Of a stretch of DNA of 64,000 nucleotides, positions 18,724 to 31,309 are shown in pieces. The position numbers and the translations under genes were made by a program. This DNA comes from Salinivirgaceae bacterium (GTDB taxonomy: Bacteria; Bacteroidota; Bacteroidia; Bacteroidales; SZUA-534): contig JAFYYA010000043.1 of assembly GCA_017557785.1 (NCBI GenBank), forward strand, positions 1 to 64,000. The letters run 5' to 3'. The notes beneath the pieces were generated by a model. The model worked only from the letters and a program-made list of their open reading frames with translations. It made no database searches and was not told where the DNA came from. The first letter of the stretch is position 1, and each line of letters starts with the position of its first letter.

Positions 18724-19266
18724 TCAGAAAGTTTCCAGCAAGTCGAACATCGGTTTAAACCGTTCGTTGTAAAGCATTTGCTTGAAGTTGGGAAGTTCGT
18801 TGCGGTAGATTTCTGCCATTCGTTGATTGTGCGCTACCGAGTACGAAAAATTCGCCAGCCGGTCGCAGAGTTTCACAAAAGTGGCGGTTTCAAGCGCTCG
18901 TATTCCATTGTAGTATTTGTCGTTGGCACGTTCCTCGCGTGTGCGGCCTTTCTCGTTGGTCAGTGCGTAAACAATTTCGGCAACTTCATAGCCGCAACGC
19001 TTTTTCACATCGTTGTATGTTTGGCGCGTGTCTTCAATTGTATCGTGAGTCCAACAGGCAGCAAGAACGGGTTCAATTTCTTCGTTATGAAGCAGATGAG
19101 CGAATTTGCAACCAAAGTCGTACACCATTTTCAAGTGGATGGTGTAGGGGTGGTTATCGTATTTCTGATTGGTGCCGATGTGACATTCGGCCGCATATTC
19201 CATTGCATTTCTGATGGCTTCAGTGTCGAAGCCATTGTTCAGTTTGCAAAAATCGTCCAATTTCAT
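18724..19266 (-). CDS. HD-domain (RelA/SpoT hydrolase-type, MESH1-like) phosphohydrolase
   Basis: 180 residues. HD-fold metal ligands are visible: His29, His44, His74-Asp75 in CWTHDTIEDT and Asp135 in KLCDRLAN. This is the arrangement of the (p)ppGpp hydrolase domain of SpoT and of small MESH1-type hydrolases. No synthetase domain is attached. The likely role is hydrolysis of (p)ppGpp or a related 3'-phosphorylated nucleotide. It overlaps the gmhA stop by 4 bp (ATGA), so the two are translationally coupled, an unusual pairing of alarmone-type and LPS-sugar functions. Confidence 0.75.
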   Translation of the reverse strand: MKLDDFCKLNNGFDTEAIRNAMEYAAECHIGTNQKYDNHPYTIHLKMVYDFGCKFAHLLHNEEIEPVLAACWTHDTIEDTRQTYNDVKKRCGYEVAEIVYALTNEKGRTREERANDKYYNGIRALETATFVKLCDRLANFSYSVAHNQRMAEIYRNELPNFKQMLYNERFKPMFDLLETF

Positions 19267-19862
19267 TGTGGTTGATTCGTGTTTTTGCCAAACAAATCTT
19301 CTTCAACAATTTGGCAGAAAATGTGTCCTAGCAATATGTGTGCTTCTTGAATGCGTGGTGTGTCGGTCGATGGCACATTAAGTAAAAAATCAACCACATC
19401 CTTCATTTTTCCGCCCGATTCGCCAGTCATTGCCACCGTGACCAATCCTTTGTTTTTTGCCACTTGTAAGGCCCGCAGAATGTTCTCTGAATTACCCGAT
19501 GTTGAAATGCCGATCAGCACATCGCCTTTTTTACCAACACCGTTCACGTAGCGCGAATAAATCTCGTCGTATGAATAGTCGTTGGCAACGGCTGTAACAT
19601 AAGACGAGTTCACATGTAGCGCTTCAGCATCGAGTGGGGGGCGGTCGAAATAGAACCGGCCGGATAGTTCAGCAGCCAGATGTTGTGCGTCGGCAGCGCT
19701 GCCGCCGTTGCCACAGAACAGCACCTTTCCGCCGTTGCGGTAGCAGAGCGTTATGGCATCGGCAATCTTGCCAACGGTGTTCATGAGTGTCTGACCGCCA
19801 ATGATGGCTTGTTTGGTGGCAATTGAGCCTTCAATTATCCGTTTTATTCCATTTATGTCCAT
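19263..19862 (-). CDS. gmhA: Phosphoheptose isomerase-type SIS-domain protein (GmhA)
   Basis: 199 residues, normal size. SIS motifs FCGNGGSAADAQHLAAELSGRF and ISTSGNSENI, with the C-terminal helix IQEAHILLGHIFCQIVE. These match GmhA/DiaA, which converts sedoheptulose 7-phosphate to heptose 7-phosphate for the LPS core. The active-site Glu in AAELSGRF and His in EAHILLGH are present, which favours GmhA over the replication factor DiaA. It begins 18 bp after a terminator, so it starts a new transcript with the HD gene. Confidence 0.88.
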   Translation of the reverse strand: MDINGIKRIIEGSIATKQAIIGGQTLMNTVGKIADAITLCYRNGGKVLFCGNGGSAADAQHLAAELSGRFYFDRPPLDAEALHVNSSYVTAVANDYSYDEIYSRYVNGVGKKGDVLIGISTSGNSENILRALQVAKNKGLVTVAMTGESGGKMKDVVDFLLNVPSTDTPRIQEAHILLGHIFCQIVEEDLFGKNTNQPQ

Positions 19863-19929: not shown

Positions 19930-20349
19930 CTATTTTGTTATGTACGACATTATTATCACCGCCGCACCTTCCTTGTTGTTCTTGAACGAACAGAAGATAT
20001 TGTACATGCCGGTCTTCTGACACGAGAAACCAACTGCTTCAGCAAACGAGCCGTCAGGTTTCAAGTTAGAGACAAGAGCATTGCTTCCTTCAGAAAGTTG
20101 AATGACAGCCTTGCCTTCATAACCTTCAGCGTTGCACACAACAAACTTGTAAACAAAGCCTTTGGTCAGAATCACACTGAACTTTTGTGCAGGTGAGTTG
20201 GCTGGTAATTTAACTTTGAAGTCTTTCAAATATGTTGCATTGCCAATTCCTAATGCGCACACGTTTACCAAGTCGTCACTCTGTGCGAAAGAATGATTCA
20301 TGGTCAGTGTCAGCATCAGAACTGATAATATTTTAAGAGCGTGTTTCAT
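19930..20349 (-). CDS. Small exported protein, partner of the second lipoprotein
   Basis: 139 residues with signal peptide (MKHALKILSVLMLTLTMNHSFA). The mature part is beta-rich (FSVILTKGFVYKFVVCNAEGYEG; CQKTGMYNIFCSFKNN) and looks like a compact sandwich. It begins 3 bp after the lipoprotein gene. Size, export and position mirror the gene at 5261-5872, and the strand pattern F-x-V-x-L...Y-(R/K)-(L/F)-F-V is shared, though overall identity is low. Function unknown. Confidence 0.7.
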   Translation of the reverse strand: MKHALKILSVLMLTLTMNHSFAQSDDLVNVCALGIGNATYLKDFKVKLPANSPAQKFSVILTKGFVYKFVVCNAEGYEGKAVIQLSEGSNALVSNLKPDGSFAEAVGFSCQKTGMYNIFCSFKNNKEGAAVIIMSYITK

Positions 20350-20352
20350 AGA

Positions 20353-21285
20353 TTACAGGTTGATTATCATTGTACGTGCGTTTTCGATAGCGGCAATAAT
20401 TTTTGCCAGTGTCTCATCAGAGATGTCAATGATTTGCTGTTCATTCGATTTGAACATAAGCATACCATCAACTTCTACCATTTCTGGTTCACCCGGAATT
20501 ACCTGTATTGACACGTTTTCGTATTCTTTCTTAATCTTTTCGATTTCTTTAACCAAATTCGCAAATGAAGAATTTGATTTGTAGTTCTTCAAAATCAGCA
20601 GCAAGTCTGACAATACGATTTTTGAGTCACCAATACGCTCAACAAGTTGGTCGTGTGGCGATTCTTTGACAACTTGGCAAGCCAGATACATACCTTCAAC
20701 CCACATTCCGGTTACAAGCAACGAACTGATGTTGCTGCGGTTGTTCTCTCGCAGGTACTCATCCATATTGTTGAAACTCGATACCGATATGTACATCAGT
20801 GAGTCGATGTTCTCGTTGTTTGTCGCCAAACGTTTGATGGTGTTGAAATCGAAGAAGTGTCCGATGCGCAGTTGATCGGCAAGTTTCTTGATGGCTTGCA
20901 TGCTGCTGATAATCGAACCGGTTTTCTCGTACATGTTGAGATAACCCAGGTCGCAACCATAGATGCCAAGGTTCAAGGCTTGCTTGAAGTCGGTGTCCAG
21001 ATTGTCAACTTTGTTTGTCGGTGCAAGGAACTTCTGGTTGAATGGCACACCTGTTGATTTTATCAAAGCAGCCATCTCAACTGGCGACGATATGTTGTCA
21101 ATGATATCGTTCATTGCTTCCTTCGATATCATCAGTGGTTTGTCTTTGAAAATTGAATCAGGAATGGCAAAGTCATCGTTTTTCTTTGCTTTGCTTCCGT
21201 CACCTTGGCAGTTGACCATCAGCAGTGAACCGCCTGCAATCAGTATTGCTAATACTGTGGAAATTTTTCTATTCATGAAATTCAT
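20353..21285 (-). CDS. Conserved lipoprotein, paralogue of the 4410-5249 lipoprotein
   Basis: 310 residues; the second ATG (21276, MNRKISTVLAILIAGG) may be the true start. Lipobox LLMVNC at about residue 26. The mature protein is largely helical and aligns with the lipoprotein at 4410-5249 over SPVEMAALI, VPFNQKF, QALNLGIYGCDLGY and LLVTGMWVEGMYLA. It lies 52 bp after the ABCG transporter gene with no obvious terminator between, so read-through from the Sia/Che operon is possible. Function unknown. Confidence 0.75.
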   Translation of the reverse strand: MNFMNRKISTVLAILIAGGSLLMVNCQGDGSKAKKNDDFAIPDSIFKDKPLMISKEAMNDIIDNISSPVEMAALIKSTGVPFNQKFLAPTNKVDNLDTDFKQALNLGIYGCDLGYLNMYEKTGSIISSMQAIKKLADQLRIGHFFDFNTIKRLATNNENIDSLMYISVSSFNNMDEYLRENNRSNISSLLVTGMWVEGMYLACQVVKESPHDQLVERIGDSKIVLSDLLLILKNYKSNSSFANLVKEIEKIKKEYENVSIQVIPGEPEMVEVDGMLMFKSNEQQIIDISDETLAKIIAAIENARTMIINL

Positions 21286-21336
21286 TTTTTTTGCGCGATA
21301 AAAGTAATCTTTTTTGCTATTTGATTATATCAATTG

Positions 21337-24300
21337 TTATTCTTTTTTATCAGTTTCTGTGGCTTCCTTTTTTGCGAATTTGCCGAAGAACGCTGAGATT
21401 TTTTTCATTGCGTTGTTGGTTACTTCGGGGAAGAAGTCCATTGAGCGTTTCAACCAGTCGTAGTACAATGCCACATAGCAGAACGCTGTCATCAGCCACA
21501 CAACCCACATGTTGAACCAGAATGTGTTGAATTCGTGGCCCAGGAAGTATTTCACTGGTGAGTAGAATTGTGCGCGATAGTCGAAAATGTTATTTGCCCA
21601 CGGAATCTCATAAATGGGATTTTTCATTTGAATCAGATGGTCCTTGTACGCTTTAATAGGCGTTTTTTCGTATGTGTTCCATACAATATCGTCCACGGCC
21701 TCGTTCTGATATGCTTGTTTCAAGCGGTTATGAGAGTTGTGGCTCTTTTCGTTCCAATAGTCTATAATGGCGTTCTTTTTATTGGTGGCCTCGTTTTCCA
21801 TTCTTGAGTAGTAGCCATTAAGTTTTTGAATGAATTCATTGGTATTCAATCCTACTTCCGGCGTAAATCTTTCTGGTGTAAGGTCTTCAATGTAGTTGAA
21901 TTCAATGTCGGGCACACGAACCATCTCTTTCGACAACTCATTTTTGAGCAGTGCCAGTTTCCATTTGTAATCTTCTATCTCTTCGTTTGTTGTCAGGTCT
22001 TGAATCTTTGTCGAAGAGCAATAGTCGACACGTTCGATTAATTCTGGCAAATAGTGTGTCGTTTTATAACTTCCAACACTTATCTGTTGGTCGATATCGT
22101 AGAATTTCTTCTCGTACTCATTGTCTTTGAATTGACGCACCATCAGTCCCTCATATACCCAGCGTGTTGCAATGAATTCGCAAATTGGTGGAACACCCTC
22201 AATGCTGCCGATGGCGCGGTTCAACTTGTCGAAACTGAACATTGCACCGCCTAGAGCCATCTGCGGAATCATCACAAGCGGAATCATAATGTAGATGGTA
22301 ACGGCAGAGTTGAAGGTCGATGACAGAATCAGGCCTACAAGGTTCGAGAAGGTTGCGATTGTGAACATCGCCCACCAGTATTCAAACCATAATCCTTTGA
22401 CGCTCAGTATCGAATTGGCAACCAGTACAAACAAAATTGATTGAATGGCTGAAATAATGAACAGAATTGAAATTTTTGCCACCAGATATGTCGAACGGCT
22501 CAGATTCAGGAATTTCTCGCGGTTCAGAATTTTCTGGTCTTTGAAAATTTCCTCGCCACTTACCATCAAACCAAGGAACATGGCCACAATCAGGCTCATG
22601 AATATATATATAGGTATGTTGGCGTTCTCTCTGAATATGTAGATATTCGAGTTCGGGTCGGCAATGTATCTGATTAAGAACGAAAGAATTAAACCCAATG
22701 CTGGTGCTTCGAGTATATTCAGAACCAAATACTGTGTATTGCTGATTTTTGCAAGGAAATCGCGTTTGAAGTATATCTTCACTTGCTGGAACCACCCTGG
22801 AATATCCAACGATTTAGGCGGTGTTTCGTGCAAGTCTTTAAGTTTGATTTTCTCAATGCATTCCTTGTATTTCTCGTGGAATTTCAAGTCAAGGCGCTCA
22901 AGTTCGCGTGCCTTTTCCTGTGGTTCCTCATCGCCTTTGGCAATGCGTGCCTGCTCTTCAGCATATTTCTCAAGATATTTCGGATCAGTCTGACTGATAA
23001 TGCTTTGTTCGCGTTTCTTTTCCCATTCGGGTGGTGTAACCTTACGCTTATTGGTGTATTTACCAAATTCGTCGACCACCTGAGCGTCAATAATATTGAA
23101 TATAAGTTCAGGGTTGACGTTACCGCAGGCTGGGCATTCGCCCACATCGGCATTCAACTGGCCGTCGATTTTCTTGAAATAGGTGACGGCATCAACCGGG
23201 TTACCATAATATATAAGGTATCCGCCTGTGTCCAAAATCACCATCTTATCGAACATCTTGTAGATTTCCGACGATGGCTGGTGGATAACGACAAACACGA
23301 GTTTGCCCTTCATGGCAAGTTCTCGAAGTAAGTCCATTACGTTCTCTGAGTCGCGCGATGACAAACCCGATGTCGGCTCGTCGACAAACAGGATTGGCGG
23401 TTCGCGGATAAGTTCCAGCGCAATGTTAAGTCGTTTGCGCTGACCGCCACTGATGGTTTTGTGCAGTGGTGAGCCTACTTTCAGGTCTTTTCTGTCGAGC
23501 AGGCCAAGGTTTGCGAGAGTCTTCTCGCAGCGTTCCTTTATCTCTTCTTCGGTCATGTCTTTGAAACATAACTTGGCGTTGAAATAAAGGTTTTCGTAAA
23601 CTGTCAGTTCCTCAATCAGAAGGTCGTCTTGCGGGATGTAGCCGATAACGCCTTCCATCTTTTCTTTTTCGGTGTGCAGATTGATGCCGTTTATCAGCAC
23701 TTCGCCTTTCGACGGGCTCTCGTTGCCGGTAAGCACATTGAGCAGCGTTGTTTTACCGGCGCCGCTGGCACCCATGATGCCAACCAAGCGGCCTTGCTCT
23801 TCTGAAAGGTTGATGTTTCGCAGGCCGATGGCTCCGTTCTTGAATCGGAACTCAAGGTCGTTGACATTATAGGTGACTTTTGCCGATGTAATGTCCGACA
23901 GGTATTTCGACACCACATCGCTGTAGTAAACCGGTTTGCCTTTCGGGAAACGAATGGCACTGCCGTTTGCAAACAAGTAAATTTTGTTGCTCTTTATCGG
24001 CAGACCGTTGAGCACCAACTCGTGCGAGCCAAAATATTTTGTGAAGTAAAGGTCAACGCTCTTTATCTGAAGAATGACAAGCTCTTTGTCCAATTCTTCA
24101 ATCTGGATGTGTTTGGCCTGATTTAGTTCGAGTTCTTTGTCGTTGATTATAAGAATATTAGGAATGTCGAGTTCTTCGACAGTTTCCTTACGACAGAAGT
24201 TCTCGGTACTTTCAAATTCTTCGGCAGAGATGTTAAATACCTCTGCCGCAGTGTTGATGATGGCCATTCTTTGGTCGGTAAACTGCCGGTCGGCAGCCAC

Positions 24301-24627
24301 CAACTCAAACAGACGAACTAGAACGACAACCTTCTGCTGTTGGGTCAGAGTCTTGTTGATCTTTTTGCAGATACCAAGAATCTTTACCGAGTCCTTAACG
24401 GATGTGAGTTTTACCTCTTCCTCTTCAGAATTCTCATGTAGTGAGTTACGATCCTTTATGCCTACGTGCTTGTAGAATAGGGCTAAATATTCCTCAACAA
24501 AGTCGGAACTAAGTTGGGAAGTAAGAAAATTCTCGACAAAGTCGATTTCGCTGTCTTTAACGCCTCCGTCCTGTTTGGCAATGATTGCAAACAGTTGCAT
24601 TAAGGCCTTCAGAATCTCTTCACTCAT
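21337..24627 (-). CDS. ABCG-type transporter (ATPase-permease fusion) with TerB-like and FHA-like N-terminal regions
   Basis: 1096 residues. Residues 1-145 form an acidic all-helical TerB-like domain. Residues about 155-240 are beta-rich and resemble the late part of an FHA domain (VLNGLPIKSNKIYLFANGSA), but the Arg and Ser-x-x-His of phosphopeptide-binding FHA domains are not evident. The ABC ATPase spans about 250-490: Walker A GASGAGKTT (286-294), Q-loop IPQDDLL, signature ISGGQRKR, Walker B ILFVDEPTSGLSS and switch VIHQPSSE. A soluble insertion with Cys-Pro-Ala-Cys follows. The ABC2 membrane domain starts near 620, with a last helix near 1050. ABCG half-transporters usually move lipids or hydrophobic molecules. 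It is the last gene of the Sia/Che operon, 35 bp after siaC. Confidence 0.88.
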   Translation of the reverse strand: MSEEILKALMQLFAIIAKQDGGVKDSEIDFVENFLTSQLSSDFVEEYLALFYKHVGIKDRNSLHENSEEEEVKLTSVKDSVKILGICKKINKTLTQQQKVVVLVRLFELVAADRQFTDQRMAIINTAAEVFNISAEEFESTENFCRKETVEELDIPNILIINDKELELNQAKHIQIEELDKELVILQIKSVDLYFTKYFGSHELVLNGLPIKSNKIYLFANGSAIRFPKGKPVYYSDVVSKYLSDITSAKVTYNVNDLEFRFKNGAIGLRNINLSEEQGRLVGIMGASGAGKTTLLNVLTGNESPSKGEVLINGINLHTEKEKMEGVIGYIPQDDLLIEELTVYENLYFNAKLCFKDMTEEEIKERCEKTLANLGLLDRKDLKVGSPLHKTISGGQRKRLNIALELIREPPILFVDEPTSGLSSRDSENVMDLLRELAMKGKLVFVVIHQPSSEIYKMFDKMVILDTGGYLIYYGNPVDAVTYFKKIDGQLNADVGECPACGNVNPELIFNIIDAQVVDEFGKYTNKRKVTPPEWEKKREQSIISQTDPKYLEKYAEEQARIAKGDEEPQEKARELERLDLKFHEKYKECIEKIKLKDLHETPPKSLDIPGWFQQVKIYFKRDFLAKISNTQYLVLNILEAPALGLILSFLIRYIADPNSNIYIFRENANIPIYIFMSLIVAMFLGLMVSGEEIFKDQKILNREKFLNLSRSTYLVAKISILFIISAIQSILFVLVANSILSVKGLWFEYWWAMFTIATFSNLVGLILSSTFNSAVTIYIMIPLVMIPQMALGGAMFSFDKLNRAIGSIEGVPPICEFIATRWVYEGLMVRQFKDNEYEKKFYDIDQQISVGSYKTTHYLPELIERVDYCSSTKIQDLTTNEEIEDYKWKLALLKNELSKEMVRVPDIEFNYIEDLTPERFTPEVGLNTNEFIQKLNGYYSRMENEATNKKNAIIDYWNEKSHNSHNRLKQAYQNEAVDDIVWNTYEKTPIKAYKDHLIQMKNPIYEIPWANNIFDYRAQFYSPVKYFLGHEFNTFWFNMWVVWLMTAFCYVALYYDWLKRSMDFFPEVTNNAMKKISAFFGKFAKKEATETDKKE

Positions 24628-24662
24628 CTATACGTTGTTTGTATTGACCGTTCACCTGATTG

Positions 24663-25046
24663 TTAGTCAAGCGAATAACTGATTTGCTCGAATGGTACGT
24701 CAACAATGTCGGCATATTCTTCGCCGGCTTCTTCCATATCTTCGTCATCCTCAGGATAATGCCATCTTACAAGCACGTCTTTGCCTGCTTCGTGCATCTC
24801 TTCCAGTTTCAGAAGTATGTCCAGAATCATTTTTGAAGATGCCGTGTTGAAATACACCAACTTAAAGTTGAAGATGGTTTTACCCGTAGCCTCTTCCGAA
24901 TAGCGGTCAATCCAGTCAAGGATAGGCTCATAGAATACTGCAACATCTTCCGGAAGCGATCTTCCTGATATTTCAAATATTTCATTTGCAACATCCAAAG
25001 TTACGCTTGGGGTGTCATCCGTTCCAACAATTTTTATAACCTCCAT
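24663..25046 (-). CDS. siaC: SiaC-family (DUF1987) regulatory phosphoprotein
   Basis: 127 residues, the family length. The segment FKLVYFNTASSK carries Thr68, the same number as the phospho-threonine of Pseudomonas SiaC. The STAS-like fold is evident from ISGRSLPEDVAVFYEPILDW and the C-terminal strand VRWHYPEDDEDMEE. In the known system SiaB phosphorylates this threonine, SiaA (a PP2C phosphatase) removes it, and free SiaC binds a diguanylate cyclase. Here kinase and phosphatase genes are adjacent but no GGDEF protein is. The target is probably another protein, possibly the transporter encoded next. Confidence 0.9.
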   Translation of the reverse strand: MEVIKIVGTDDTPSVTLDVANEIFEISGRSLPEDVAVFYEPILDWIDRYSEEATGKTIFNFKLVYFNTASSKMILDILLKLEEMHEAGKDVLVRWHYPEDDEDMEEAGEEYADIVDVPFEQISYSLD

Positions 25047-25068
25047 AGTAAAATTAATTAATTATATG

Positions 25069-25653
25069 TTAATCAAAATTTTGAGTTCTCGATATGGTCG
25101 ACGATATGATGAAGAATGAATACTCATTGTTGATGGGAACAAATTTGTAATCCAATGGGTTTCCAGTCTTCTTTGCAATGTCGATAAAACCTAAGCCGGC
25201 TCCGCCTTTTTCTGACAGACGGCCTTCTTTTATTTGTTGTTTGTACAACGCTTTCAGTCCTTCTTTGTCAAGAGAATTGATTTTGTCCAACACATCTGCA
25301 ATAGCACCTTCTTTCTCTTTGAGCAGTACGTTGCCAGTTGTGATGACGTAGTTCTCTTCGTCTTTACACATAAGGAACACACCGCTGCCTTCTTCATGAC
25401 TTTCTTCGTTGGTCATGTAATCAGCGTGCTTGCTGATGTTCTGAAGAAATTCCACAATCACATGGAACACCTTCTTCTGAACAGAGTTGGGTTCCTCTTC
25501 AACCATCATGTTGGTTTCTGTAATCGACGTGAAAGCCTTGGTCACTTGGTGAGTTATTTCTCCCTTGTAGACCAATTTAACGTCCTTGCTTTCCATCGAC
25601 TCGTTAAAACTATAGACAAACTCTAGAAATTCGTTGTTCCCATCCATAGCCAT
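25069..25653 (-). CDS. siaB: SiaB-family protein kinase (DUF6272)
   Basis: 194 residues. GHKL-like ATP-binding features: VFHVIVEFLQNISKHAD with the N-box type Asn, and GGAGLGFIDIAKKTG as the glycine-rich lid. This is the single-domain SiaB type, related to anti-sigma-factor kinases. It is expected to phosphorylate Thr68 of the SiaC encoded 22 bp downstream. The phosphatase gene is 16 bp upstream. A second in-frame start is at Met3. Confidence 0.88.
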   Translation of the reverse strand: MAMDGNNEFLEFVYSFNESMESKDVKLVYKGEITHQVTKAFTSITETNMMVEEEPNSVQKKVFHVIVEFLQNISKHADYMTNEESHEEGSGVFLMCKDEENYVITTGNVLLKEKEGAIADVLDKINSLDKEGLKALYKQQIKEGRLSEKGGAGLGFIDIAKKTGNPLDYKFVPINNEYSFFIISSTISRTQNFD

Positions 25654-25669
25654 GTCGTTTTATTTAATT

Positions 25670-28297
25670 TTAAAATTCAATTCCTATTAACAATATATCG
25701 TCGACTTGTTTATAGTCGCCTTTGTATGCTATGAAATCATCGTATATGATTTTTTCATAGTCGTAAATTTCCACATCATAGTGTTCCACAAGCAAATCAC
25801 GAATGCGGCTTGCCTGATATTTCCGTCCGGTTTCGCCACTGACTTGGTCTGGCAGACCATCAGAGAAAAAGAACACTCTGTCTTTGGGCTTCAAATTTAT
25901 TAAATGATTTTCAAAATCCGCTTCAGGTTTTTTACCTAATGGTATGCCACCAATAGCCTTATGACTACCTTTGTATTGGGTTAACTCGTTGCCCCTCAAT
26001 AAGTAAAGTGGTCTGTGAGCACCTGCAAATTCAAGAATATTTTTCTTCAAGTTTATTTTGCAGAGCGCAACGTCCATACCGTCACGAGCCTCGGTGTCGA
26101 TTCGGTCTTGTTTCAAAGTGGTGCGAACACCTTCATGAAGTTTGTCGAGAATCACACCTGCGTCGATATTGTCGTAGTGGTCGACCACATTGTTAAGCGT
26201 GAAGTAACCGATGAACGAAAGCAGTGCGCCTGGCACGCCGTGACCTGTACAGTCGACAACTGCAATAAACAGGTCGTCGCCTTTCTTGAAGAACCACGGG
26301 AAGTCGCCGCTGACCACGTCTTTCGGGCGGTAGAAGATGAACGATTTCGGCAGGAACTCCTGAATGAACTTGGTGTTCGGCAGAATGGCCGTCTGAATAC
26401 GTTTTGCGTAGTTGATACTTTCGGTGATGGCCTTGTTCTTCTCCTGAATCTCGATTTCAACCATCTTCTGCTCGGTGATGTCATGGGCAACGAACAAGAT
26501 TGTTTCCAACTCTTTGTTGTCATCGCTGAACTCAGGGATGGCGTTCACCTGCATAATGCGGTCGCCAAATGTGGTTGGGAAGGTCACCTCTGCATCATGC
26601 TTGCTGTTGGTGCTTCTTACGGTTTTCACAGCATCGCTGAAGAACTCTTTGATGGTTGGCTCGAAGGCCACATCGTCAAGGTTCTTGTTTATGATGTCGG
26701 AAATTTCAATTCCGGTGAATGTCTTTACCATAGGGTTCGCGTAGAAGAATTGTCCGTTGGTTCCGATACGCAGAATCAAGTCGAGAGAGTTCTCTGACAA
26801 TGACTGCATTTTACTCTTCATACGCTCTTCTTTTTCGGCTCGCTTGCGTTCGGTGATATCGCGAGAGTTGATAATCAAACCGTTGATTGCGGGGTCATCG
26901 AGCAGGTTGCGGCAGGTTGATTCAATGTAAATCTTCTGGCCATCCTTACGCATATATGTATATTGTATGGTGGCAGTCGAACTTGCGTCTTCAGCAACCT
27001 TGCGCAATGTTTCAGTAAATTCTTTCACGCCTTTGGCGGTCAGACGGTCGATGTCTTTGCCGTCAATCATTTCCTGTATGGTGTATCCGTAGATGTTCAC
27101 CACTGAAGGACTGATGTATTTGAGTTTCAATTCTTCATCATATATCGATATGATTTCGGATGCGTTCTCGAGCAATGCGTGCTGACGTTTTTGTGCATTT
27201 TCAACGGCACGGATCTGGGTTTGCAGATTCGAGTTGGTTTTCTCCAGTTCCTCGTGTGTGGCACGCATCTCTTCTGCATTCTGACGCAACTCTTCTTCGT
27301 TTTCCTGAAGTTCCTCGGTCATCTCCTGGGCGTCTTTCAGCAGTTTCTCAGTGCGGGTGTTGACTTTCAGGTTGAAGATGGTGCGGGCGATGATGTCGCT
27401 CAGTTCTTTCAGGAATCTGATTTTCAGTTCGCTGATGTCGTCTTTCAACGATGCGAATTCAAGTACGCCTTGCAGTTTCTCGTCGGTGATAAGCGGAACC
27501 AAAAGCAGTGAGTTGGGTTTCTTGTCGCCCAAAATACCGCTTGTGATGGTTACAAACTCATCGGGAATCTCGCGGCGGTAAATCACATCCATCTCGTAAG
27601 CGCACTGGCCTACAAGTCCTTCGCCAATCTGGAATTTCGCGTCGATGTATTTCCTGCGGTTGTAAGCGTAGGTTGCAGTGTTTTCGAGTGTTTTGTCTTC
27701 TTCGTTGTAGATGTAGAACGCACCCTGGATGACATCGATATACTTAATGAGTTCAACCAAGGTGAGATACGAAAGGTTGCCCAAATCATTCTGCAGACGC
27801 AGAATGTCGGAAATAGTATCCTTTCCTTTGGCAATCCAGTTCTGCTCTTTCTCTTTCTCGTTAGTCAGCGCAAGGTTCTCGCGCATTTTTTTCAGCGAGT
27901 GGCCAAGAATGTCGTTGTCGTTGATTTCAGCGTCGTTGGCAGCAAGGTCGCCTTCACCAATCTTCTTTGCGAAAAGGGCGTTCATGTTGATTACGTGATC
28001 CTTTTCGGTAATCTGGGTTTCGAGAGAGTCGATAGTTTCCTGCTGCGATTTTGTGAAGGCATAGCCCAATATTCCCATAAAAATAGGCAGCAGATCAATG
28101 ATAAAGTATGCTGGCGAAGTCTTGTGCAGTTCAACAAGGCTGCTCAGCGATGCGGTGTAACCGCCTTTTATAAAACCAAGTATCCATGACAGAACAAGAA
28201 TCACTACACTTAAACCTACTAAGGTGGGGGTGAAGTTGATCCTATTGTTCACCTTGTATATGAATAACTTTTTTATTTTGTCGATAAACGCTTCCAT
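25670..28297 (-). CDS. Membrane GAF-PAS-PAS sensor with SpoIIE/PP2C phosphatase domain (SiaA-like role)
   Basis: 875 residues. Two membrane helices (about 25-45 and 62-82), a HAMP-like linker, GAF domain (about 150-310), coiled coil rich in Glu (312-372), PAS domain (373-485), second PAS domain (500-612), then a PPM/SpoIIE phosphatase domain (about 625-875). The phosphatase metal motifs SGDF, VDCTGHGVPGALLS, RDGMDVALC and DDILLIG are intact. It is expected to dephosphorylate SiaC-P in response to signals read by the GAF and PAS domains. Unlike Pseudomonas SiaA, which senses through a periplasmic domain, almost all sensing here is cytoplasmic. Confidence 0.9.
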   Translation of the reverse strand: MEAFIDKIKKLFIYKVNNRINFTPTLVGLSVVILVLSWILGFIKGGYTASLSSLVELHKTSPAYFIIDLLPIFMGILGYAFTKSQQETIDSLETQITEKDHVINMNALFAKKIGEGDLAANDAEINDNDILGHSLKKMRENLALTNEKEKEQNWIAKGKDTISDILRLQNDLGNLSYLTLVELIKYIDVIQGAFYIYNEEDKTLENTATYAYNRRKYIDAKFQIGEGLVGQCAYEMDVIYRREIPDEFVTITSGILGDKKPNSLLLVPLITDEKLQGVLEFASLKDDISELKIRFLKELSDIIARTIFNLKVNTRTEKLLKDAQEMTEELQENEEELRQNAEEMRATHEELEKTNSNLQTQIRAVENAQKRQHALLENASEIISIYDEELKLKYISPSVVNIYGYTIQEMIDGKDIDRLTAKGVKEFTETLRKVAEDASSTATIQYTYMRKDGQKIYIESTCRNLLDDPAINGLIINSRDITERKRAEKEERMKSKMQSLSENSLDLILRIGTNGQFFYANPMVKTFTGIEISDIINKNLDDVAFEPTIKEFFSDAVKTVRSTNSKHDAEVTFPTTFGDRIMQVNAIPEFSDDNKELETILFVAHDITEQKMVEIEIQEKNKAITESINYAKRIQTAILPNTKFIQEFLPKSFIFYRPKDVVSGDFPWFFKKGDDLFIAVVDCTGHGVPGALLSFIGYFTLNNVVDHYDNIDAGVILDKLHEGVRTTLKQDRIDTEARDGMDVALCKINLKKNILEFAGAHRPLYLLRGNELTQYKGSHKAIGGIPLGKKPEADFENHLINLKPKDRVFFFSDGLPDQVSGETGRKYQASRIRDLLVEHYDVEIYDYEKIIYDDFIAYKGDYKQVDDILLIGIEF

Positions 28298-28311
28298 TGT
28301 GCTTCAATTCT

Positions 28312-29067
28312 TTATAGCGGGGCAACACCGCCTATTGCATTTGAAATCTCGTCTATTTTATTTACAAACCCATTTTCAAAGGGCTTAAAGGTAGCGATTT
28401 CTATCAATCCAACAGCATTGTCGTCCTTTAAAATTGGAATTATTGCCAAATTGTTCACTTCTATCTGTCCCAAACCCGAAACAATCATCAGACTTTTGCT
28501 CGGTAAGTCGTTCAAAAACATTGGTTTCCTGTCTTTTGCAACTTGTCCCGACAAACCTTCGCCAATTTTGAACGATTGCGGCATCTCATCGTTGTAGTAG
28601 GCGAATGTTGCAACGGGGCTGAATTCATCGTCGGTGTTTTGGAATACGATGCCGACTGCAACGTCCATTTGTTTTGAGAAAGCGTAGAGCAGAGCATCGC
28701 CAAAACTCTTCCAGTCGCTGTTTTTCCCTGTTTTGTCGAGCAGTGATTTCAAATCGAATCCTGAATCGGCGGTTTCCTTCATCTTTTGGTCAACTTCCTT
28801 CTCGTATTGGTCGTCGATGATTTGGCTGGTGGCGGCGCGCTCATCTTCGGATTTCATGTAGATGGATGTGATTTTAGTACCCATCAGTCCGATTTTTGAT
28901 GCAATGAGTATTTGCGCCACAATAATCACAAGCAGTATGAGCGCGTAACTGTTTTTGCCAAAATTCGGGGCGGCGGCCAGCATTATTGCTATGGCGGCAA
29001 CGCTGATGGCGATTAGGAAAATCGTCCATCCTGTAATTTTTTGCCGATATTTCAGAAGTTCGTCCAT
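28312..29067 (-). CDS. Two-helix membrane protein with GAF domain
   Basis: 251 residues. Membrane helices at about 15-33 and 40-58, a short charged coiled linker, then a GAF domain (about 100-250) with AVGIVFQNTDDEFSPVATFAY, KIGEGLSGQVAKDRKPMFLND and LAIIPILKDDNAVGLIEIA. The GAF domain resembles the one in the downstream phosphatase (FQIGEGLVGQCA). It has no output domain, so it probably works as a partner or modulator of the phosphatase. Spacing is 14 bp to the phosphatase gene and 3 bp from cheB. Confidence 0.8.
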   Translation of the reverse strand: MDELLKYRQKITGWTIFLIAISVAAIAIMLAAAPNFGKNSYALILLVIIVAQILIASKIGLMGTKITSIYMKSEDERAATSQIIDDQYEKEVDQKMKETADSGFDLKSLLDKTGKNSDWKSFGDALLYAFSKQMDVAVGIVFQNTDDEFSPVATFAYYNDEMPQSFKIGEGLSGQVAKDRKPMFLNDLPSKSLMIVSGLGQIEVNNLAIIPILKDDNAVGLIEIATFKPFENGFVNKIDEISNAIGGVAPL

Positions 29068-29070
29068 AAA

Positions 29071-29634
29071 TCAGGCTAATTTAAGTAAAAAATCAATAAT
29101 TTGTTTCGTGCTGAACACATAATCCACTTTTGTGGCGTTCATTGATGCTGTTGTCATTGTCGGCACCTGGCACTCTTTGGGGTCCTGAACGATGGTCAGG
29201 CCGCCGTTGTCGGTAATGCTCTTCAGTCCAAGCGCGCCGTCTTTGTTGGCTCCGCTCAGGATGATGCCCACCAGTTTCCGCTTGAAATTGTACGATGCCG
29301 AGAAGAACGACAAGTCGATTGACGGACGCGAGTGGTTCACCACATCTTCTGTCGAGAGAGAGAAGCGGTTGCCCAACTCGATGTACATGTGATAGTTGGC
29401 GGGCGCAAGATAGATGCGTCCTGCTTTGAGCGGCTCTTTGTCGTGCGGCTCGATTATTGGCAGGTTCGATTTTATCGACAATGCTTCGACGAATCCCGAA
29501 CGGATGTGTTTCAAACGGTGCAGACACATCAGAATCGGCAGCGGATAGTTGGCTGGCAGCGCCGCTATAATTCGGCTAACTACTTGAAAACTACCTGCCG
29601 AACCACCAATCATTATGGCTTTGTAATCATTCAT
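29071..29634 (-). CDS. cheB: Stand-alone CheB-type methylesterase domain
   Basis: 187 residues, only the esterase domain with no receiver. The catalytic triad is complete: Ser12 in GGSAGS, His39 in CLHRLKH and Asp132 in SGANKDGALGL. CheB removes methyl groups from glutamates of chemoreceptor-like helices. No chemoreceptor gene is in the window, so the target is elsewhere or is one of the coiled-coil sensors in this operon. Start overlaps the preceding stop by 1 nt (TGATG). Confidence 0.9.
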   Translation of the reverse strand: MNDYKAIMIGGSAGSFQVVSRIIAALPANYPLPILMCLHRLKHIRSGFVEALSIKSNLPIIEPHDKEPLKAGRIYLAPANYHMYIELGNRFSLSTEDVVNHSRPSIDLSFFSASYNFKRKLVGIILSGANKDGALGLKSITDNGGLTIVQDPKECQVPTMTTASMNATKVDYVFSTKQIIDFLLKLA

Positions 29635-30464
29635 CAGTCAACCCTTTTTTTATAAATTTTTTCGTTTGCGTTCACAATTTGCAATTTCTTGCTCGCTTCT
29701 GAATATTCAAGCGTTTCCATGTTGCCAATCACCAGATAGCCGCCAATCTCAAGGCTGTCGACCAGTTTACGTATAACCTTGTCGTACAGCGGAATATTGA
29801 ATTGCAGCAGTTTGTTGCGGTAAATCACCATCTTGTATTTCTTTGACGGACTGGCGTTCAGAATGTCGGTCTGCACATCGAGTGTGACGTCGTTGAGCAG
29901 TGTCGGCTTCATTATGGCCCGATTGTCAGAGAGTGTGTAGTATGATGCGAATTGTGTCTTGCCCACATATCGTGTGTAGTTGGCTTCGCTCACTTCGATT
30001 TTCTTCTGATCGTAGTTGCCGCCTTTTTTAACGAGTTCAACATGTTTTTGTGACGGGCACGAAGCGTCAATTTTTATCTTGCCTTGCAGGCCACCTTCGT
30101 TCATGACGATTGCCAAAGAGAACAACTCGTCGCCCGAAGTGACGTTGGGCATCCAAATTCGGCTGTCGGCGGCGCGGCTGATTTCCGAAAGGTACTTGTC
30201 GCGCAGTTCGCGCCACAGCGACGGGTCGCGGAAGAATTCGGTGACTTCGAGCGACACGGTGAACAGGAAGTCGTCGAGAGCGATGACTTTTTTGCGGATT
30301 TTGTCGGCGAAATCGTCGGCCGAGTGGCTGCCAAAAGTGTTTATGGCGTGAATCAGCCGCCGCTTGAGTATCGTGAACGTGTAATCCGACATATCAAAGC
30401 CGTAGGTGTCAGTTACAGCGCTGATAATGTTTCGAGTATCTACTATGCCTATATTCTCAACCAT
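29634..30464 (-). CDS. Degenerate CheR-like methyltransferase homologue, probably inactive
   Basis: 276 residues. The N-terminal helical CheR domain is recognisable (FTILKRRLIHAINTF, VTEFFRDPSLWREL). The SAM-binding core is eroded. The CheR motif WSAGCSTGEEPYS reads WMPNVTSGDELFS, losing Gly-Cys and the usual Glu-Glu. The FDLIFCRNVLIYF region reads YKMVIYRNKLLQF. The fold seems kept, with GGYLVIGNMETL near the end like GGYLILGSHESI. The frame is open and the gene sits between an intact cheR and cheB. It is more likely a non-catalytic binding partner than a pseudogene. Confidence 0.75.
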   Translation of the reverse strand: MVENIGIVDTRNIISAVTDTYGFDMSDYTFTILKRRLIHAINTFGSHSADDFADKIRKKVIALDDFLFTVSLEVTEFFRDPSLWRELRDKYLSEISRAADSRIWMPNVTSGDELFSLAIVMNEGGLQGKIKIDASCPSQKHVELVKKGGNYDQKKIEVSEANYTRYVGKTQFASYYTLSDNRAIMKPTLLNDVTLDVQTDILNASPSKKYKMVIYRNKLLQFNIPLYDKVIRKLVDSLEIGGYLVIGNMETLEYSEASKKLQIVNANEKIYKKRVD

Positions 30465-30466
30465 AA

Positions 30467-31309
30467 CTACATCTGTTTTTTCTTGTAAAATCCTTTCGAC
30501 CGCTCGAAATTGTTGGCCGAAGCGCCCAAAATGCTTTCGTGCGAGCCTAAAATAAGATATCCGTCGCGGTTCAGACTGCCGTTGAACATGTCGATGACGC
30601 GGCTTTGCAACTTGTTGTTGAAGTAGATAATCACGTTGCGGCAGAATATCAGGTCGAACTTCGAGTAGAAGACGTTGCCGTCCTTCACAAGGTCGTGCTT
30701 GCGGAAAACGGCTTTCTCGCGCAGGAACGGCTTCATCTGGATGGTGTCTTTCACCTTGTCGATGTCGAAATATTTCTCGTAGGGCACGTCAACCTTGTCT
30801 TCGAAGTTGAAGGGGTTTTCCTTTATCACCTTGTCGAAATTGTCGAGATAGCCCAAGTTGAATCGGTATTTGTATTGTCCCGCCTTGGCGGCTTCGAGCA
30901 TGTCGGTGTTGATGTCGGTGGCGAACACTTTGGCCTGGTCGAACATTCCCAACTCGTTGAGCAGGATGAGCATCGAGTAGATTTCCTGACCGCTTGAGCA
31001 GCCTGCGTGCCAAATGAATATCGAGCGGTTCTTCTTGAATTTCGGAAGTATGTGATAGCGAAGTGTTTGCCACATTTCGGGGTTGCGGAACAACTCTGTG
31101 GTGTTGACGGTGATGTCTTTGACCATCTGCTCAAGGAAATCTTTGTCTTTGCCAATCTTGTGGATGAGTTGGTTTAGGTCCATATTGTTGTCTAACAATA
31201 TTTTCTCAATCCTTCGGCAGAACGATTTGTCAGAATAGTCCGTGAAATCGTAAGTAGACGATGTCTTGATGGCTGTAATTAATCTCGCTGCATCTTCATT
31301 TGTGACCAT
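30467..31309 (-). CDS. cheR: CheR-type protein-glutamate methyltransferase
   Basis: 280 residues. The N-terminal CheR domain has VKDITVNTTELFRNPEMWQTL. SAM-binding motif I is intact (WHAGCSSGQEIYSM), as are the acidic motif (VFATDINTDMLEAAK) and FDLIFCRNVIIYFN. It transfers methyl groups from SAM to glutamates of receptor-like helices. First gene of an eight-gene minus-strand operon with gaps of 35 bp or less. An AT-rich leader upstream holds the likely promoter. Confidence 0.92.
   Translation of the reverse strand: MVTNEDAARLITAIKTSSTYDFTDYSDKSFCRRIEKILLDNNMDLNQLIHKIGKDKDFLEQMVKDITVNTTELFRNPEMWQTLRYHILPKFKKNRSIFIWHAGCSSGQEIYSMLILLNELGMFDQAKVFATDINTDMLEAAKAGQYKYRFNLGYLDNFDKVIKENPFNFEDKVDVPYEKYFDIDKVKDTIQMKPFLREKAVFRKHDLVKDGNVFYSKFDLIFCRNVIIYFNNKLQSRVIDMFNGSLNRDGYLILGSHESILGASANNFERSKGFYKKKQM

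Follow-up and report, generated by a model that had tools for sequence, protein, structure and literature searches.

We analyzed a 64,000-nucleotide window of a Salinivirgaceae genome (positions 1 to 64,000, forward strand, of contig JAFYYA010000043.1; GenBank assembly GCA_017557785.1) and found on its minus strand an operon of ten genes (19930 to 31309). We read it, with a probability of about 60%, as a partner switch of the SiaABC type that has an ATP-binding cassette (ABC) exporter for its output, instead of a diguanylate cyclase, and whose CheR and CheB proteins act on a sensor that is not a methyl-accepting chemotaxis protein (MCP). The initial annotation had described an operon of eight genes, from 31309 down to 21337 on the minus strand. 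All eight are present where it placed them, with internal gaps of at most 35 bp, and Pfam and NCBIfam confirmed their families, the second CheR more weakly than the others. It had missed two exported-looking genes that extend the operon 3' of the transporter gene abcg, namely, lp310, which starts 51 bp past abcg, and s139, which follows 3 bp further on.

In the mechanism that we propose, whether SiaC is phosphorylated at Thr68 would depend on the phosphatase SiaA, with its GAF and PAS domains, and on the kinase SiaB. Without the phosphate, SiaC would bind the cytoplasmic part of the ABCG-type transporter (its TerB, FHA-fold, or ATPase domain) and switch it, and phosphorylation would free SiaC from the transporter. 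The exporter would have two exported partners, the lipoprotein lp310 and the periplasmic protein s139. The GAF protein, CheB, and the two CheR family proteins, one of them a pseudo-CheR, would make up an accessory block. This block would methylate a sensor other than an MCP, most probably at the linker helix of SiaA, and reset its sensitivity.

Conservation of the operon and co-occurrence of SiaC with the transporter

A profile of the transporter N-terminus was scanned against genome contigs, and the best 80 of at least 428 confirmed relatives were used. The titles of all but one of these loci name Bacteroidota, many of them Salinivirgaceae, Marinilabiliaceae, or Bacteroidales metagenome-assembled genomes and two of them Rikenella; the remaining one names Chlorobiota. 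Named hosts include Alkaliflexus imshenetskii DSM 15055 (L115), Breznakibacter xylanolyticus DSM 6779 (L111), and Labilibacter (L098, L103). Sixteen loci in which longer opposite-strand frames hid genes were rescanned in six frames, and our counts include the corrections from that scan. For each gene, the denominator omits loci too short to contain it. The survey was anchored on the transporter, which places CheR/CheB clusters lacking the core beyond its reach, and the locus counts are not independent events, since the 80 loci come from related species.

The linkage of siaC to ABCG and cheR/cheB genes, which had been seen at one locus, was kept across many genera. A siaC gene lies upstream of the gene for the TerB-FHA-ABCG transporter in 75 of the 77 loci with room for it, with a median gap of 37 bp and a gap of no more than 356 bp in all 75. 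We found siaB in 75/76 loci, siaA in 68/72 (one of them of the TPR-SpoIIE type, in L092), the GAF protein gene gafTM and cheB each in 63/69, lp310 in 71/71, and s139 in 69/69. The six loci that lack cheB are the same six that lack gafTM (L092, L093, L100, L109, L112, and L119), and the cheR-cheR-cheB-gaf block is inverted in L102. The three most frequent flanking families (at 33, 26, and 25 of the 80 loci) are themselves versions of genes in the cluster: the first and third encode GAF-PAS sensors, and the second encodes an upstream CheR. The first unrelated-looking family occurs at 23/80 loci. By these counts, the operon has siaB-siaC-abcg-lp310-s139 as its core, with two exchangeable front ends, the phosphatase and the CheR/CheB/GAF block.

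Some loci depart from this layout. Three loci from Marinilabiliaceae N1Y90 and Carboxylicivirga (L109, L112, and L119) have siaB-siaC-abcg-lp310-s139 with neither the CheR/CheB/GAF block nor a siaA gene in place, and in L109 a SiaA homologue is encoded roughly 4 kb beyond the operon, on the opposite strand. At L092 (6711 to 9971), a TPR-SpoIIE protein stands in place of the phosphatase.

We also compared the distributions of SiaC and the transporter family in 40 relatives, a set that includes the source genome (94% complete, with 7% contamination) and 20 same-order genomes from 20 different families. Both were found in the same 28 genomes and neither in the other 12. Among the 20 same-order families, 8 have both and 12 have neither, a match with a chance of about 1 in 126,000 (20 choose 8) if the families are independent. 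In a 296-genome sample of the phylum, SiaC occurs in 18 genomes and the transporter in 5. Each of the 5 also has SiaC, and no other genome of the class in the sample does. Three of the 5 (G049, G146, and G186) have a single SiaC, which is the operon copy. The best ABCG protein has SiaC encoded within 0.5 kb in 25 of the 28 relatives. At least 18 of the 28 genomes have a second, diverged ABCG gene with siaC within approximately 3.3 kb on the other strand; in the source genome this second pair lies on C37 (L006), where an lp310-like gene, a gene of 142 codons, and an ABCG gene face siaB-siaC.

These distributions bear on a transcriptional alternative, in which SiaB would be an anti-sigma-type kinase with SiaC as its antagonist, the switch would control expression of the operon, and the transporter would simply be a target gene. 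SiaB has conserved N and G boxes of the ATPase type, a likeness to anti-sigma kinases. The many unlinked SiaC paralogues also fit this alternative, as does the structural likeness of SiaC to anti-sigma antagonists described in PMC7647112. However, no sigma factor was found among the operon genes or the ten recurring flanking families scanned (two further families fell outside the scan), and a transcriptional switch alone does not predict the joint absence of SiaC and the transporter from 12 of the 40 relatives. We consider this alternative unlikely.

The phospho-switch, the transporter, and the gene after siaC

The proteins of the predicted switch keep their active-site motifs. Of 75 aligned rows, the window included, 74 have Thr at position 68 of SiaC, which the initial annotation had called a conserved threonine (the odd row, L057, is a short frame of 94 amino acids). 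Each of the 11 SiaC matches of the source genome has Thr or Ser there. Residues E68, Q71, and N72 and the GGAGLG motif of SiaB are kept in 76/76 rows. SiaA consists of a hydrophobic N-terminus (judged by eye), a GAF domain, two PAS domains, and a SpoIIE/PP2C domain, whose Asp/Gly motifs occur in 69 to 70 of 70 rows, with the metal-binding Asp residues present. The NCBIfam SiaA model matches residues 611 to 873 at 178 bits, below its cutoff of 700, and none of the operon proteins reached the equivalog cutoffs of NCBIfam SiaA, SiaB, or SiaC. The best reading of these motifs is that the operon encodes a SiaABC-type partner switch, with phosphorylation and dephosphorylation of SiaC by SiaB and SiaA as the predicted chemistry.

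The transporter has matches to PF00005 at residues 269 to 420 and to PF01061 at residues 614 to 805, and this order of nucleotide-binding before transmembrane domain in one chain is that of ABCG exporters. Its N-terminus holds a TerB domain, found with Pfam, and a domain that agreed with an FHA fold when tested for one and had been overlooked earlier. FHA domains bind phosphothreonine (pThr). In a hand comparison with FHA motifs, the pocket Arg and the first Asn do not look conserved in this domain; L206-N207-G208 is invariant in 52/52 rows. We dropped the domain as a canonical reader of SiaC phosphorylated at Thr68, since by that comparison its pThr pocket residues look unconserved.

The putative lipoprotein lp310 is mostly helical, with Cys26 conserved in at least 90% of rows, and its AlphaFold2 model has a predicted local distance difference test score of 82.8. 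Foldseek gave no match to this model under an E value of 1, and an lp310 profile gave only weak, unrelated matches to solved structures (best E value, 0.0014, to a kinetochore subunit), so we assign lp310 no fold. The predicted s139 protein has a signal-peptide-like N-terminus ending in AQ and an invariant Q23; its best match, to LM2363, had an E value of 0.017.

Table 1. Genes of the operon in transcriptional order. Families were called with Pfam and NCBIfam; membrane anchors, the lipobox, and the signal peptide were judged by eye. aa, amino acids.
Gene	Product	Position	Strand	Match or conservation
cheR	Intact CheR-type methyltransferase, 280 aa	30467..31309	-	PF01739, 141 bits
pseudo-CheR	CheR family protein without SAM and RN motifs, 276 aa	29634..30464	-	PF01739, 70 bits
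cheB	Methylesterase domain alone, no receiver, 187 aa	29071..29634	-	PF01339, 161 bits
gafTM	GAF protein with hydrophobic N-terminus (membrane anchor by eye), 251 aa	28312..29067	-	PF13185, 44 bits
siaA	SiaA-like sensor phosphatase, 875 aa	25670..28297	-	PF07228, 67 bits
siaB	SiaB-family kinase, 194 aa	25069..25653	-	NF038262 (SiaB_fam_kinase), 165.6 bits (cutoff, 85)
siaC	STAS-like phosphoprotein, 127 aa, predicted phosphosite Thr68	24663..25046	-	PF09345, 141 bits (cutoff, 24.5)
abcg	ABCG-type half-transporter, 1096 aa, N-terminal TerB and probable FHA-fold domains	21337..24627	-	
lp310	Predicted lipoprotein (by eye), 310 aa	20353..21285	-	Kept in 71/71 loci
s139	Small predicted secreted protein (by eye), 139 aa	19930..20349	-	No Pfam family

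Past s139 on the same strand (18724 to 19862) are two genes named by eye, one of 199 aa that looks like an SIS-type isomerase and one of 180 aa that looks HD-type, and frames of 199 and 180 aa also come next in loci L041, L042, and L044.

The earlier description took no account of SiaC paralogues. The source genome has 11 SiaC matches; two of them (L009 and L012) share an aminotransferase neighbor and an 871-aa neighbor and may be one gene counted twice, so that the number of copies is about 10. Ten other members of the genus have 8 to 10 copies, the rest of the family has 6 to 17 (8 to 17 apart from the genome with 6, which is 65% complete), and G330 has 20. Ten neighbors of the orphan siaC genes of the source genome, scanned for a common effector, had no shared theme: they encode a peptidase, an OmpA protein, an aminotransferase (twice), a glycosyltransferase, CNNM, DUF3078, and DUF5698 proteins, an acyl-CoA dehydrogenase, and a rhomboid protein. 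One siaC gene adjoins a gene for a 374-aa protein (L014:8358-9482) with two tandem SiaB-like stretches (residues 10 to 186 and 199 to 374), and a SiaB-like gene of similar length (364 aa) occurs in G045 (L140). In a SiaC tree of 43 rows, the transporter-linked proteins are clustered, though not in one clade (3 changes), and 15 of the 17 rows classed as other lie across a branch with 90/89 support; the tree does not show a single origin for the link between SiaC and the transporter.

So many SiaC copies per genome mean many possible partners, and the orphan genes of the source genome adjoin unrelated genes. Both points fit a second alternative, in which SiaABC, CheR/CheB, and the transporter are co-transcribed and answer the same envelope stress while SiaC acts on unlinked partners. 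That the only SiaC of G049, G146, and G186 lies in the operon speaks against such an arrangement, as does the recurrence of the SiaC-ABCG link in the second paralogue pair, with a different arrangement of genes, and we regard a shared stimulus without a functional link as quite improbable.

A further question is whether a diguanylate cyclase could be the output after all. The observation that none is encoded in the operon extends to the whole source assembly and to 39 other relatives: we found GGDEF domains in 0/40 of these genomes and in 0/4 class-mates that have the transporter, with a search whose control was found in 8 of 14 named genomes. Because the source assembly is 94% complete, a GGDEF gene might have been missed there, but hardly in all 40 genomes. 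This leaves no candidate for the unlinked cyclase that had been raised as an alternative partner of SiaC. In SiaC-containing genomes of other classes, GGDEF domains were found in 13/13 sampled, seven of which had just one weak match (46 to 67 bits). We examined 17 of the 20 SiaC loci from these 13 genomes, and the order siaA-siaB-siaC-GGDEF occurs in 3 of the 17, including L129, which has broken frames. Two of these cyclases were tested against NCBIfam SiaD and scored 173 and 177 bits, with a cutoff of 290.

The gene after siaC varies between lineages, and in the operon it is an exporter. At seven loci of other classes (L125, L128, L129, L126, L127, L142, and L137), siaC is followed by a gene for a diguanylate cyclase (three), a histidine kinase (three), or a class III nucleotide cyclase (one). 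Ten genes after or near siaC that were scanned in these classes encode three histidine kinases, one nucleotide cyclase, one SpoIIE phosphatase, and five other proteins (two AAA ATPases, a methyltransferase, a glycosidase, and one without a family). This variation is only suggestive of an exchangeable effector slot after siaC. A broader reading, which we offer tentatively and think less likely to be true than not, is that SiaC is a general adaptor whose effector is swapped through the gene that follows it (a diguanylate or nucleotide cyclase, a histidine kinase, or the ABC exporter of Bacteroidales, which SiaC would open directly once dephosphorylated). In this lineage, CheR and CheB would have moved fully out of chemotaxis to become the adaptation arm of the switch, methylating the SiaA linker helix, with the pseudo-CheR as a noncatalytic component.

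Several findings weigh against an exporter switched by SiaC. What gene neighborhood and co-occurrence demonstrate is a common pathway and not gating, and the case is built from these, from motifs, and from folds of single chains, from which we infer the contact between SiaC and the transporter. Most SiaC copies of the source genome (L006 to L015) have no adjoining transporter, and since copies are so many, SiaC proteins probably have other partners or roles as well. At L092, siaB and abcg are present and no siaC was found between them. In G314 (65% complete), G318, and G323, we saw only diverged ABCG genes and none of the operon type, and 7 of 13 TerB-ABCG loci in the phylum sample have no adjoining siaBC. 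Finally, because genes unrelated to signaling often follow siaC in other classes, position alone is no proof of an effector. Gating of the transporter by SiaC phosphorylation, as first proposed, is nevertheless the best-supported output, with direct contact as its presumptive step.

The CheR/CheB/GAF block

In all but one of 57 loci (56/57), the second CheR has neither the S-adenosylmethionine (SAM) nor the RN motif; in the remaining one, L110, it has the SAM motif only. Directly before this pseudo-CheR, 33 of the 57 loci have a CheR with the SAM motif (exact pattern) in 31/33 and the RN motif in 33/33; in 20 of the other 24, an intact CheR lies one gene further upstream and has both motifs (20/20). 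Just one CheR is present in G049, G146, and G186. The GGSAGS motif, H39, and D132 of CheB are kept in 58 to 59 of 59 rows. In 7 of the 8 genomes searched, the source genome included, the operon copy was the only CheB found, and the eighth (G045) had no CheB and no operon-type cluster. MCPs (PF00015) were found in 0/11 members of the genus and in 0/4 class-mates with the transporter, with a control positive in 7/14, while other genomes of the family had 2 to 14 matches each, apart from one with none. CheR and CheB are thus kept in the operon although searches of these genomes found no chemotaxis receptor, and in the genus and the four class-mates these enzymes are unlikely to serve MCPs.

As a target for methylation, the best candidate, on weak evidence, is a linker of SiaA (approximately residues 317 to 366) that is rich in Glu and Gln, helix-like, and strongly conserved. 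Within it, E343 is present in 59/59 rows from loci with both cheR and cheB and in 66/69 rows overall; it is missing only in L092 (where the phosphatase is not homologous) and L100, and L076 has a gap there. Seven of those 59 rows lack E342, the EE pair is kept in L093, which has no CheB, and E343 is kept in L109, which has no block. We name no SiaA methylation site, since E342 and E343 fail to separate loci with the block from those without it. The initial proposal of methylation as an adaptation layer is strengthened by the setting, a sole CheB in the operon in 7/8 genomes and no MCP found in the genus or the four class-mates, with the SiaA linker as a candidate methyl acceptor.

Some Marinilabiliaceae loci (L098 and L118) have a second, receiver-bearing CheB just upstream. 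Other possible methyl-accepting partners were seen where the cluster starts in other Bacteroidales: in L098 (209 to 3321) the cluster begins with a full receiver-CheB and a GAF-PAS protein, and in L057 (1884 to 4256) it begins with a kinase-less GAF-PAS sensor with subthreshold HAMP and Cache matches.

The sole CheB and the lack of detected MCPs would also suit a block that is the real controller and that modifies SiaA or the transporter when prompted by the GAF protein, with SiaB and SiaC secondary. Against this, 6 of 69 transporter loci lack the block; five of these keep siaB and siaC, and the sixth (L092) keeps siaB. We think this alternative very improbable.

Comparison with known systems

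As in chemotactic adaptation, the motifs of CheR and CheB in the operon are intact. The operon differs in that no MCP was found in the source genome or its genus, CheB has no receiver, and a conserved pseudo-CheR adjoins it.

PknF, the kinase of the exporter Rv1747, is of the Hanks type. In Mycobacterium tuberculosis, the ABC exporter Rv1747 is reported to share its operon with a Ser/Thr kinase, by which it is positively modulated (PMC3908365). No SiaC is known in that system, whereas the switch of the operon described here is a STAS-like protein and the FHA-like domain of its transporter seems to lack the usual pThr residues.

The gene content resembles that of the biofilm system SiaABCD of Pseudomonas aeruginosa, described as a PP2C phosphatase, SiaA, a kinase, SiaB, a phosphoprotein, SiaC, with Thr68, and a co-transcribed effector (PMC7647112, PMC8457831). 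SiaC has a STAS-related domain and, by the account in PMC8457831, activates SiaD when it is unphosphorylated. The operon likewise encodes a PP2C SiaA, a SiaB kinase, and a SiaC with Thr68, with a candidate effector gene after siaC. In contrast, neither SiaD nor any GGDEF protein was found in its genome, the gene after siaC encodes an ABCG exporter, SiaA has other sensor domains, and the CheR/CheB/GAF block and two exported-looking proteins are added. The operon thus suggests that SiaABC switches have outputs beyond cyclic di-GMP. A search of open-license papers found no title joining SiaC to an ABC transporter in Bacteroidetes.

A STAS protein beside an ABC transporter is also found in MlaFEDB of Escherichia coli, where MlaB binds the ABC ATPase MlaF near a Thr that matches the phosphosite of other STAS proteins, and a Thr52Glu substitution weakens binding (PMC7367683). 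That paper reports no evidence for phosphorylation of MlaB, and it raises, and leaves open, the control of ABC transporters by phosphorylation of STAS-type proteins. Unlike MlaFEDB, the operon has an ABCG-type transporter and encodes a kinase and a phosphatase beside its STAS-like protein. Because STAS-like protein, kinase, phosphatase, and transporter sit together here, the question posed for MlaB could be tested with one cloned operon.

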